From Malaciobacter mytili LMG 24559 (lineage in GTDB: Bacteria; Campylobacterota; Campylobacteria; Campylobacterales; Arcobacteraceae), in the NCBI RefSeq assembly GCF_003346775.1, contig NZ_CP031219.1:2418001-2482000 (forward strand): a stretch of DNA of 64,000 nucleotides, given 5' to 3'. The notes beneath the pieces are model-generated. The model was given only the letters and a program-made list of their open reading frames with translations, was not told where the DNA came from and made no database searches. Within the stretch, counting starts at the first letter, position 1. Every line of letters starts with the position of its first letter. Position numbers and translations under genes: made by a program. This document shows positions 18,235-24,186 of the stretch, piece by piece.

Positions 18235-18591
18235 ATGATACTTGGGAAATGTCCTTATTGTAATGCAAATGTAATCTCAAAAAAAATCACAGCAAGAGGG
18301 AAAAATATTAAAGTATATAGCTGTGAAAATGCTAAAAAACAATATGATGAAAGTGAAATATATGTTTTTACTTCGGATTCTACATGTAGATTTAGAGTCT
18401 ATTCAAATACTTTTTTAAAATGGAATAAAAAAAGTTTTTCAGAACTTGAAATGAAAAAACTTTTAAAAGATGGTCAAACTATTGTAAGACTTCATGGTAA
18501 AAAAGGAAGTAGTGAATATTTTAAGTATGTAATACCCCATAAAGAATATGGAGTATCAATACTTTGGGAAGAAGAGATAGAAACTTTATAA
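18235..18591 (+). CDS. Zinc-ribbon protein resembling a topoisomerase C-terminal repeat
   Basis: 118 residues; the ATG at 18235 follows GGAG, and longer starts have no ribosome site. It begins with CPYC (C6, C9), has further Cys at YSCEN and STCRFRVY, then SFSELEMKKLLKDGQTIVRLHGKKG, and ends with a beta-rich part. This order (CPxC, Cys, CxF, a Leu-rich helix before a Gly, then a strand pair) fits the Toprim_Crpt repeat found at the end of topoisomerase III-type enzymes, here as a free-standing protein. It could bind single-stranded nucleic acid. Function unknown. Confidence 0.5.
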   Translation: MILGKCPYCNANVISKKITARGKNIKVYSCENAKKQYDESEIYVFTSDSTCRFRVYSNTFLKWNKKSFSELEMKKLLKDGQTIVRLHGKKGSSEYFKYVIPHKEYGVSILWEEEIETL

Positions 18592-18906
18592 ATATTGAAC
18601 TAAAGCCATATAAAAAATTGTTCCACCAAAAATAGAGATAAGATAGTTTTTTATACTTAAATGCAAAAATGCCGTTACACAAATACCAAGCAACTCTTTA
18701 AATCCATAAGGATATATTTTAAAATCTATATCTTTTAAGGTATAAACTATAAGTATCATCATAATAACAGGTGGAAAATACTTTTCAATAAATATAATAT
18801 ATAAAGGTGGTTCTTTTTTTATAAAAAATATAAAAGGGAATACCCTTGTAAAGTAGTTTACAACTGCCATAACTAAAATGGCTAAATATATCTCTAAAGA
18901 ACTCAA
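18586..18906 (-). CDS. azlD: AzlD-family small transporter subunit
   Basis: 106 residues with three to four hydrophobic helices. It is the small partner of AzlC-type permeases that export branched-chain amino acids or analogues. Motifs fit the family: the YFTRVFPFIFF stretch near residue 20 and the Pro-rich YFPPVIMMILIVYTLKD. The TTG start shares TTGA with the azlC stop. It overlaps the end of the convergent zinc-ribbon gene by six bases. Confidence 0.85.
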   Translation of the reverse strand: MSSLEIYLAILVMAVVNYFTRVFPFIFFIKKEPPLYIIFIEKYFPPVIMMILIVYTLKDIDFKIYPYGFKELLGICVTAFLHLSIKNYLISIFGGTIFYMALVQYL

Positions 18907-19586
18907 GCTTCAACCTTTTTTCTTAAAAAAAACATTAATATCAATGAAGACACAATAGAAACAATTAGCATCTTATCACTAGAAACAAAAATAAGTGCAA
19001 AGATAGAAGAGATGGCACCTATTATAAAAGGATAAATATTTTTTAAGTTTTTATATTGTTCTATACATAATACAACAAAAAGAGCAGTTAAAGAAAACTC
19101 CAAGCCTGCTGTATTAAACTTTACATAAGAGCCAATTAAAGCCCCACTAGTACATCCAATAATCCAATATAATTGATTTAATAGACCTAAAAATAAATAG
19201 TAGTGCTTTTTACTTAAACTCTCATCATCCTTTATTGTAGTTAATAAAGCATATGTTTCATCTGTTAAACCAAAAATTAAAAAAGGTTTAAAATTTCCAC
19301 TATTTTTAAATCTTTTTAATAAAGATAATCCATAAAAAGATTGTCTAATATTTACAAACCAAGAAGCAATAGCAATATCAATTAATCCAGCTTTTGCATT
19401 AAAAAAGTTTATTGCTACAAACTGTAAAGCACCCGCATATATAAATATAGACATAATAGGTGCTAAATACCAAGGATAATTAAAACTTGTTAATAATAAG
19501 CCAAAAGCAAATCCTAAAACAATATATCCCATCATAACAGGGATTGAAATAGAAAAAGCTTTTTTTAATTCTTTTTCATATTTCAT
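18903..19586 (-). CDS. azlC: AzlC-family branched-chain amino acid permease
   Basis: 227 residues, large subunit of the AzlCD exporter. Visible are the N-terminal AFSISIPVMMGYIVLGFAFGLLL, the NIRQSFYGLSLL motif, and the FGLTDETYALL motif typical of AzlC; multiple helices follow to the end. The start overlaps the stop of the upstream SspB-like gene by one base, and the stop overlaps azlD, so the three form one tight operon. Confidence 0.9.
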   Translation of the reverse strand: MKYEKELKKAFSISIPVMMGYIVLGFAFGLLLTSFNYPWYLAPIMSIFIYAGALQFVAINFFNAKAGLIDIAIASWFVNIRQSFYGLSLLKRFKNSGNFKPFLIFGLTDETYALLTTIKDDESLSKKHYYLFLGLLNQLYWIIGCTSGALIGSYVKFNTAGLEFSLTALFVVLCIEQYKNLKNIYPFIIGAISSIFALIFVSSDKMLIVSIVSSLILMFFLRKKVEA

Positions 19587-20026
19587 TATTTAATCAATTT
19601 AAGGTTTCTTGGATTGTTTTTAAAATTATTTAAAGATTTTTCTTTTGGTTTTGTATTAAATTTATCTACTGTTGCAATTGGATTTAAGTATAAAATTGAA
19701 TCATCAATAATTATTTGAAAAATTGAATGTAAAGGAACTTGTACTGTTGAACCAAAATTTTCACTTCCAAATCCTGCTTCAAAAGATAAAATAGTTTCAT
19801 TTATAATTTTTACAGTTGTATATGTATAATTTGATAAAATATATAAAGAAAATTTAGATAATTGTGATTTTATTGTACTTGGTAATTCAGGATTAAATTC
19901 CATCGCCTCTAAATTAGCAGTTATTGAGAATTCTTTATTATTTTTTAGTAAAAAATTTATTATCTCATTTATTTGAGAAGCTACTAAATCTTTATAACTA
20001 TTCTGTTCTATTATTTCATTTATCAT
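19586..20026 (-). CDS. SspB-like ClpXP adaptor candidate
   Basis: 146 residues. Residues 1-30 are helical, about 33-115 are a beta-rich domain, and the tail is charged and flexible. The core order (FSLYILSNYTY, then ILSFEAGFG, then VQVPLHSIFQI) parallels SspB, where an iVL-x-Y/F strand, an F.a.FGG strand and a VP..Ai.aI strand form the fold that holds ssrA-tagged proteins. The last residues NPRNLKLIK resemble the E. coli SspB ClpX-docking end (LRVVK). SspB delivers tagged proteins to ClpXP. I infer the role from pattern and tail; it could instead be an unrelated Campylobacterota protein. It is the first gene of the operon with azlC and azlD. Confidence 0.55.
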   Translation of the reverse strand: MINEIIEQNSYKDLVASQINEIINFLLKNNKEFSITANLEAMEFNPELPSTIKSQLSKFSLYILSNYTYTTVKIINETILSFEAGFGSENFGSTVQVPLHSIFQIIIDDSILYLNPIATVDKFNTKPKEKSLNNFKNNPRNLKLIK

Positions 20027-20070: not shown

Positions 20071-20712
20071 ATGAAACAGATAATTCTACTTATTTTGATA
20101 ACAATTTCATCTTTACAAGCTAAAAAGGTAACCTTAACAAAAGAGGATTTAGCTCTAATTCAAAAGAAACCTACTAGTTCACAAATTATACATAGACTAA
20201 TTAATTATAAAAGATTACTAGATACAACTAAAGATTTGGAATTAATAAAAAAGCTTTCTTATGTAAATAGTTTTTACAATAAAATTCTTCCAGTTAATGA
20301 TGAGGAAAAATATAAAGTTGATGATTATTGGGCTACACCAAAAGAGTTTTTAATTGAAGGTAAAGGTGACTGCGAGGACTATGCTATTGCAAAATATTTT
20401 ACACTCCTTACTTTGGGAATACCTAAAGATAAATTATATTTAGCAATAGTAAAAGTTAAAAATGCAACTTCATACCATATGGTTTTATTATATATTAAAA
20501 ACAAAGATTCAATGCCTCTTGTTTTAGATAATTTAAGTTCAAAAGTTATAGAGTTTAATAAACGACCAAAACTTATTCCTAAAGTTATTTTTAATGAAAA
20601 TAATATTTATATTTTAAAAAATAAAAAAATTTATAAAAAAGCAAATATACAGTGGCAAGGGGAAAATAAATGGGAAAAAATTCTAAAAAGAGTCTATAAA
20701 GACAATGAATAA
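20071..20712 (+). CDS. Transglutaminase-like cysteine protease (LapG type, BTLCP)
   Basis: Periplasmic protease of the family that releases large adhesins when c-di-GMP is low. Its 213 residues begin with a signal peptide (1-17, ending LQA). The catalytic triad is C101 in KGDCEDYA, H136 in SYHMVLL and D153 in LVLDNL. The DDYWATP segment before the Cys matches LapG. Its stop overlaps the convergent pabC gene by 19 bases. No LapD or giant adhesin is in the window. The start lacks a clear ribosome site. Confidence 0.82.
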   Translation: MKQIILLILITISSLQAKKVTLTKEDLALIQKKPTSSQIIHRLINYKRLLDTTKDLELIKKLSYVNSFYNKILPVNDEEKYKVDDYWATPKEFLIEGKGDCEDYAIAKYFTLLTLGIPKDKLYLAIVKVKNATSYHMVLLYIKNKDSMPLVLDNLSSKVIEFNKRPKLIPKVIFNENNIYILKNKKIYKKANIQWQGENKWEKILKRVYKDNE

Positions 20713-21260
20713 TCTTCTATAATATCAAAATCTATCATTGCATTTAAAAGTGCTATTTTAGAAGCTTTTTTTAATATATCAAAAGTTATATCCAACTGTT
20801 TTAAAAATCCACTATCTAAATATCTTTGTCTTGTTGTTCCTTGTAATAGAGGTTTTTTGGGAGTAAACCAAATATTATCAACTAAAACTGCAATATTTGA
20901 GATTGTAGTATCAGTTAAATACCCCTGTTTAAATATCATTACCTCATCACAACCTTGTTTATCAATATTATCTAAAATTTCTCTATTTAAATACTTTTTT
21001 GAATAGGAGATATTATCATTATTTACTATTTTAAAGCTTTTGATTTGTCTTTTTTTATATTCAAAATAATTAATATCTATAATCTCATCTTCATTATAAA
21101 TAACTTTACATCTTAGAAGTTTATTACTTAAAGGATAGATATATTCACCCAAATCAAAATTTTTAGCTATTGTATTTGCTACTCTTTTATTATGATACTC
21201 TAAATTAAAAATTTCATAATCTTCACATTTTATTGTTTCAAAATATACTTTATTTTCCAT
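20694..21260 (-). CDS. pabC: Aminotransferase class IV, probable 4-amino-4-deoxychorismate lyase
   Basis: PLP enzyme that would release p-aminobenzoate from aminodeoxychorismate for folate. It has 188 residues, shorter than E. coli PabC (269) and lacking most of the N-terminal domain's usual length. The PLP Lys is likely in SKKYLNRE. GYLTDTTISNIAVL and PLLQGTTRQRYLD are the class IV motifs that bind the cofactor phosphate. pabB lies 2 kb away on the same strand, separated by two other genes. A role on branched-chain amino or D-amino acids is less likely. Confidence 0.72.
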   Translation of the reverse strand: MENKVYFETIKCEDYEIFNLEYHNKRVANTIAKNFDLGEYIYPLSNKLLRCKVIYNEDEIIDINYFEYKKRQIKSFKIVNNDNISYSKKYLNREILDNIDKQGCDEVMIFKQGYLTDTTISNIAVLVDNIWFTPKKPLLQGTTRQRYLDSGFLKQLDITFDILKKASKIALLNAMIDFDIIEDYSLSL

Positions 21261-23232: not shown

Positions 23233-24186
23233 TTAAGAGGGAATATAAATTTTATCTAGAAGTTCTTGATATTCTAAAGTTACATTTGAATCACAAGTTA
23301 TTCCTCCACCACTTTTATAAAAAAACTCATTTTTATGTTTTTCAATAAATCTAATTAATACAAAACTTTGAACTTTTTGTGAAGTAAAAACTCCAGCAAT
23401 TCCCGTATAAAAATCTCTTTTATATGCTTCTACTTTATTTAAAATATCAACTGTTATTTTTTTAGGAGTTCCTGTAATAGAACCTGCTGGTAAAATTGAA
23501 GTTATAATATCTCCAAATTTACTTTGCCAATTATCATCTAAAGTTCCATGAATTTTAGAACTTACTTGAAGAAGTTTTTTTTCACCTGCATTTATCTTCT
23601 CACAAAATCTAAACTTATCAACTTTAACTTTTGAAGAGACAATTGCTAAATCATTTCTTAGTAAATCAACAACCATTGTATGTTCAGCCATCTCTTTTAT
23701 ATCACCTAAAATTCTAGTTTGAGCATTTGGTATTTTTGTGTCAATTGTTCCTTTCATAGGATAAGTATAGATTTTATTTTTTTTAATTTCTATAAATCTT
23801 TCAGGAGAGAAACATACAAACTCATCTTTATATTTTAATTTAAACCTAGCTTTTGCTTTTTTATATATCTCTTCTAAAGATAAAGAAGTTTGTATTTTTG
23901 TTTTGCAAGTTAGATTTAAAAGATAGCTATTTCCATTTAATATTTCTTCTTGCAAAATATCAAATTTACTTTTATACTCTTTAAAACTTATAGGATATTT
24001 TTTTACTAAAATTTTTTCTTGAAGTTTTGATTGACTTTTTTCACAAAGCTCAAACTTTATATTAGAAGGTAAGTCTTTAAGTTTAATTATCTCATATTTA
24101 CTTAAATCATAAGAAATCATAAAAAAAAATGGCTCATTTTCTGAGCCATATTTATTTAATAATAGTCTAATTTCCTCTTTTTTCAA
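23233..24186 (-). CDS. pabB: Aminodeoxychorismate synthase component I
   Basis: Chorismate-binding enzyme that aminates chorismate to aminodeoxychorismate for folate. It has 317 residues, the short Campylobacterota type without the N-terminal half seen in E. coli. Motifs: NGNSYLLNLTCKT, PERFIEI, PMKGTIDT (where the Lys distinguishes PabB/TrpE), ADHTMVVDLLRND-like AEHTMVVDLLRND, GSITGTPK and YTGIAGVF. It starts 8 bases after pyrB, so the two are co-transcribed. The glutaminase PabA is not in the window. Confidence 0.93.
   Translation of the reverse strand: MKKEEIRLLLNKYGSENEPFFFMISYDLSKYEIIKLKDLPSNIKFELCEKSQSKLQEKILVKKYPISFKEYKSKFDILQEEILNGNSYLLNLTCKTKIQTSLSLEEIYKKAKARFKLKYKDEFVCFSPERFIEIKKNKIYTYPMKGTIDTKIPNAQTRILGDIKEMAEHTMVVDLLRNDLAIVSSKVKVDKFRFCEKINAGEKKLLQVSSKIHGTLDDNWQSKFGDIITSILPAGSITGTPKKITVDILNKVEAYKRDFYTGIAGVFTSQKVQSFVLIRFIEKHKNEFFYKSGGGITCDSNVTLEYQELLDKIYIPS

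Follow-up and report, generated by a model that had tools for sequence, protein, structure and literature searches.

The proposed adaptor gene and its neighbours in the window

The window analysed here is a stretch of 64,000 nucleotides from Malaciobacter mytili LMG 24559, and the gene under study occupies positions 19586..20026 on its reverse strand. It encodes a protein of 146 residues which, on the basis of its orthologues, its predicted fold and its profile match, we describe as an SspB-like adaptor; SspB is a helper that brings faulty proteins carrying a degradation tag to ClpXP, a protease. The first-pass annotation of this DNA had proposed such an adaptor from the letters alone, and the open reading frame and the four segments that it singled out (FSLYILSNYTY, SFEAGFG, VQVPLHSIFQI and NPRNLKLIK) are all found at the positions it gave. 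The order that it had described, a helix followed by a beta-rich core and then a tail, is borne out by both the predicted model and a profile alignment in the SspB register.

In the model, the folded core comprises residues 1-118 (19673..20026, reverse strand), which is also the range aligned by VIA-align; it consists of an N-terminal helix (residues 2-28) and, after it, a beta-rich barrel, and is the proposed binding domain for the ssrA tag. Within the core, and in the register given by hhalign, FEAGFG (residues 82-87; 19766..19783, reverse strand) corresponds to FNARFG in E. coli SspB, and VQVPL (residues 95-99; 19730..19744, reverse strand) to VSVPL. Residues 131-146 (SLNNFKNNPRNLKLIK; 19589..19636, reverse strand) make up a conserved C-terminal tail, a putative ClpX-docking peptide.

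Downstream on the same strand lie azlC (18903..19586; PF03591, E 7.4e-40) and azlD (18586..18906; TTG start; PF05437, E 5.6e-21). The Pfam matches confirm the identities suggested earlier for these two genes, and the overlaps are as had been described: one base between the adaptor gene and azlC, in the sequence TAATG, and four bases between azlC and azlD. On the other side, a gene for a LapG-like cysteine protease (Peptidase_C93; 20071-20712, forward strand; NCBIfam CystProtLapG, 135 bits vs a cut-off of 320) diverges from the adaptor gene, an arrangement seen in most Arcobacteraceae loci. The window also holds a pabC-like gene for a class IV aminotransferase (20694-21260) two genes away from a pabB-like open reading frame that was judged by eye (23233-24186), both on the reverse strand.

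Conservation and gene order in Campylobacterales

Named relatives of the protein, from Malaciobacter halophilus and Arcobacter sp. CECT 8985, are 74-77% identical to it. The sampled genomes all come from one order, Campylobacterales; the protein was present in 99 of 100 relatives, and searches with a profile of 59 sequences recovered the gene in 292 of 298 and in 386 of 397 genomes, nearly always as a single copy. Across 59 orthologues, P46, F82, G85, G87 and N115 are invariant, and conservation is 90% or more at E83, A84, F86, N90, V95, P98 and Q104. Given this near-universal presence and conservation, we regard the gene as a core gene rather than the oddity of one genome.

The genes found next to it across loci include azlC, pepF, pabC-like, uvrD, lysR-type or fabH genes. 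In 27 loci, drawn from 10 families, the gene immediately upstream and on the same strand encodes a PepF-type M3 oligopeptidase and usually overlaps the adaptor gene or nearly does so; every sampled locus of Campylobacteraceae (7) and Helicobacteraceae (8) is among the 27. This adjacency would fit, if weakly, a role in protein breakdown. In many other families the upstream gene is a pabC-like aminotransferase gene, and at several Helicobacteraceae and Campylobacteraceae loci (L121-L124 and L113-L115) the downstream gene is uvrD or encodes a DUF5644/HdrB-like protein. Unlike the gene of gamma- and betaproteobacterial SspB, the Campylobacterales gene was not found beside sspA at the loci examined.

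Gene order also identifies the counterpart in Campylobacter jejuni. The H. pylori counterpart is, by gene order, probably HP0469; HP0292 was rejected as a candidate in view of the pepF neighbour. The order pepF-adaptor gene-uvrD is found in all seven Campylobacteraceae loci, and it is the order of Cj1099 (pepF), Cj1100 and Cj1101 (uvrD) in C. jejuni, where Cj1100 is entered as a protein of unknown function (PMC4004267). No adaptor role for Cj1100 was found in the literature searched.

Fold and family assignment

On its own, the window protein matched no relevant family in Pfam, NCBIfam, PDB (by phmmer) or PHROGs, and a profile search against PDB sequences returned nothing useful; the SspB signal emerges only when many members are scanned or when profiles are compared with profiles. 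In a Pfam scan of 59 members, PF04386 (SspB) was matched by nine, with a best E of 0.0016, and every other Pfam family by at most two. Five NCBIfam families were matched by more than one member, all of them SspB models, the top one hitting 12 members (best E 3.3e-4). When PF04386 was searched against 100 genomes in six frames, three of the five best matches were the adaptor gene. No member reaches the curated PF04386 cut-off, the best scoring 18.7 bits vs 27.

Profile-profile comparison was carried out with hhalign against ten gamma- and betaproteobacterial SspB sequences, which include E. coli sspB and plasmid-borne copies. The alignment has an E of 3.8e-4 and the correct register, pairing FEAGFG with FNARFG and VQVPLHSIFQI with VSVPLAAVLAI. 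As the hhalign probability is modest (36-46%), the score was calibrated on 328 decoys, 164 natural and 164 reversed. Seven of 11 SspB entries outscore all of them (24.8-30.5, against 21.9 for the best decoy), and E. coli SspB scores above every decoy.

The AlphaFold2 model, built from three sequences, is of moderate confidence (pLDDT 67, pTM 0.61). An SspB fold as the top structural match had been proposed as a check on the assignment, and this is what was obtained: SspB structures take ranks 1-4 in a Foldseek search of the PDB and ranks 1-12 with VIA-align (Z 9.1 to 7.1), where the next entries are unrelated barrels at Z 6.5 and below. Small Sm/Hfq-like barrels match in both searches, at lower scores. 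The twelve VIA-align entries include 2nys, from Agrobacterium, whose title does not carry the SspB name and which is hit weakly by an SspB profile.

The nearest structures are those of alphaproteobacterial SspB (Caulobacter 2qas and 2qaz, Agrobacterium 2nys; Z 9.1-8.6), to which the window protein is 13-15% identical; they too form a distant offshoot of the family. With the E. coli type of gamma- and betaproteobacteria (PF04386; 1ox9, 1yfn, 8et3) it has in common the fold, the order of motifs, the register of FEAGFG/FNARFG and VQVPL/VSVPL, and a disordered linker followed by a conserved basic-hydrophobic tail; it differs in its low identity (about 15% in the structure alignment) and in scoring under the Pfam cut-off. 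Homology and a fold relationship to SspB are thus well supported.

The C-terminal tail and ClpX

The first-pass annotation had rested part of its case on the ending of the window protein, an L-basic-aliphatic-aliphatic-K sequence on an SspB-like core, and expected an LK[LV][IV]K tail to be conserved among orthologues. This did not hold up: among 97 distinct orthologues, the window protein is the only one to end L-basic-hydrophobic-hydrophobic-K, or even in the looser form hydrophobic-basic-hydrophobic-hydrophobic-basic, and LKLIK is thus ruled out as a conserved SspB-type motif, being an ending peculiar to this species. Another tail motif is conserved. It reads S-[ML]-[NE]-[AVI]-[FL]-x-[SN]-N-P-x-N-K-K-[FL]-[LIF]-K, its core pattern is present in 85 of the 97, and the linker ahead of it varies in length. 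Because an ending of the canonical XB type (L-R-V-V-K) is thereby limited to the window's own protein, we file the protein apart from canonical SspB.

The two kinds of tail may nevertheless have a layout in common. Several gamma- and betaproteobacterial SspB sequences end R-P-x-L-[KR]-[LV]-V-K, so that a proline, basic residues, two hydrophobics and a lysine possibly recur in both; the end itself differs, being N-P-x-N-K-K-[FL]-[LI]-K here and R-P-x-L-R-V-V-K there. In P. aeruginosa SspB, the tail (residues 128-135) is the main contact to ClpX (PMC13251409). We hypothesize that the conserved 16-residue tail of the Campylobacterales protein is likely a ClpX-docking peptide as well. Four orthologues (L030, L058, L062 and L120) keep the core and have no NPxN tail, and at least two genomes with such orthologues still have a detectable ClpX N domain.

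The genome of the window encodes a ClpX with a zinc-binding N domain. Across genomes, tail score and ClpX N-domain score show no significant correlation (rho 0.31, p 0.15), and divergence of the N domain does not follow the presence of the adaptor cleanly. In genus g63 and in genome G287, neither of which has the adaptor gene, the N domain falls under Pfam detection; the idea that adaptor-less lineages have lost the zinc domain is weakened in that the cysteine pairs remain and it is the surrounding residues that have changed. In the Helicobacter genus g53 the adaptor is kept and the N domain also goes undetected, so N-domain divergence does not discriminate. A second ClpX-like gene occurs in G006 (L168 and L180) and in G237 (L181 and L198); in G006 the zinc N domain is present in both copies.

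Co-variation between gene and ssrA tag

A tmRNA is present in the genome of the window and encodes the tag ANNTNYAPAYAKAA. Tags were read from 59 genomes, 45 with the adaptor gene and 14 without it. Those of the adaptor-positive genomes read (A/V)NNxx[YF]: N stands at position 2 in 44 of the 45 and at position 3 in all of them, and position 6 is always Y or F, while positions 4 and 5 are free, with six different residues each. The sole deviation, ADNASF, belongs to G250, whose adaptor (L126) has diverged strongly (E 1e-13) and shows FEAGFG in degraded form; adaptor and tag in this genome are possibly a system in decay. Two loci of family f15 (L132 and L135) come with tags that have an additional leading alanine and an odd end (AANNTNYSPAVARAAA and AANNKSYSPAVATAAA).

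Where the gene is missing, the pattern is broken in nine of the 14 genomes, across four separate lineages. In genus g63, four genomes carry Y6L and one of these also N3T; G287 reads ANKKEL (N3K and Y6L) and G062 reads ANKITF (N3K). Three genomes of g68 read AKNTNY (N2K), whereas the tag is ANNTNY or ANNTDY in four g68 relatives that still have the gene. The five genomes with an intact tag despite the missing gene are four drafts of 200-370 contigs and G411, with about 40 contigs; in G490, which also lacks the gene, a tmRNA was not found. Gene presence thus co-varies with tag positions 2, 3 and 6, with a Fisher p of 1.4e-6 by genome and of 0.006 by lineage, the latter resting on four lineage losses, which are few, and on lineages compared by genus rather than on a tree. 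Leaving out the four fragmentary drafts, an exclusion chosen post hoc, gives 4e-4 by lineage.

The SspB determinants of the E. coli tag were reportedly located by Flynn and colleagues (2001) at residues 1-4 and 7. With the aromatic residue as the anchor of the alignment, A-N-N-x-x-Y corresponds to residues 2-4 and 7 of the E. coli tag. The residues kept in these Campylobacterales genomes align with AANDENY, the tag segment bound by E. coli SspB (PMC8512704). Recognition of the ssrA tag by the adaptor is supported by the co-variation, and we infer from it that the folded core would be the part that binds the tag.

A proposed ClpXP adaptor and its alternatives

The call of an SspB-type adaptor made in the first-pass annotation is now backed by the fold, by decoy-controlled profiles, by family scans and by the co-variation of gene and tag. 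We consider it very likely that the protein belongs to the SspB adaptor family, as its Campylobacterales branch, and would deliver tagged proteins to ClpXP; most probably this is a divergent, order-wide branch acting on ssrA-tagged proteins. In the mechanism that we suggest, proteins that trans-translation has released would be bound by the core (residues about 1-118) through the N-terminal half of their ssrA tag, which is A-N-N-x-x-Y in ANNTNYAPAYAKAA. The flexible linker and the tail S-x-x-x-[FL]-x-x-N-P-x-N-K-K-[FL]-[LI]-K would then attach to ClpX at its zinc-binding N domain. Docking may then tether the tagged protein to ClpXP, leading to faster degradation.

An SspB-fold adaptor for ClpXP might have another main cargo, with the ssrA tag at most a secondary client. 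SspB does have other peptide ligands (1yfn shows it in complex with RseA, fragments of which are also delivered by E. coli SspB), and an important protein client could account for the near-universal retention of the gene; however, the tag keeps positions 2, 3 and 6 exactly fixed, with departures confined to genomes in which the gene is absent or strongly diverged, and we believe this reading to be unlikely. We give even less credence to an SspB-fold protein working in some other process, such as another protease, RNA or amino-acid metabolism, where the match would amount to a small barrel in common. The Sm/Hfq-like barrels do match the model, and the neighbours PepF, pabC-like and azlCD vary among families, but SspB stands above all other barrels in structure and profile comparison alike, and the co-variation of gene and tag is hard to explain under a role outside ClpXP.

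The first-pass annotation had also left a coupling to azlCD to be explained, and the one-base overlap in the window would suit a gene acting with azlC and azlD in branched-chain amino-acid export. Yet, when distinct loci are counted, azlC comes next in 22 of 43 from Arcobacteraceae and never in the 53 from 21 other families, whereas the gene itself is nearly universal. This distribution rules out a general functional link and leaves the coupling without general meaning: azlCD is a local Arcobacteraceae neighbour outside the adaptor system, and a joint role in export is so improbable that we set it aside.

Implications

With delivery of ssrA-tagged proteins to ClpXP as the preferred reading, we think it probable that the Campylobacterales, including C. 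jejuni and relatives of H. pylori, have a third SspB system, set apart by a ClpX-docking peptide of its own and by a separate tag code, (A/V)NNxx[YF], and that on loss of this system its adaptor and tag, perhaps along with the N domain of ClpX, decay jointly. A study of trans-translation in H. pylori described a tag without an SspB recognition motif and predicted the SspB adaptor to be absent (PMC2584231); an order-wide SspB branch, as the best reading of our data, contradicts that prediction. A literature search for SspB together with Campylobacter, epsilonproteobacteria or Helicobacter gave no contrary report in open-access full texts. In the same H. pylori work, altering the last two alanines of the tag stabilised a reporter weakly (PMC2584231), for which an SspB-like adaptor may account.

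The natural co-loss of the gene and of tag residues predicts which tag residues are read by the adaptor. A near-universal SspB branch in Campylobacterales would revise the picture drawn from H. pylori, and it offers a candidate function for the uncharacterised core gene Cj1100 and its orthologues.
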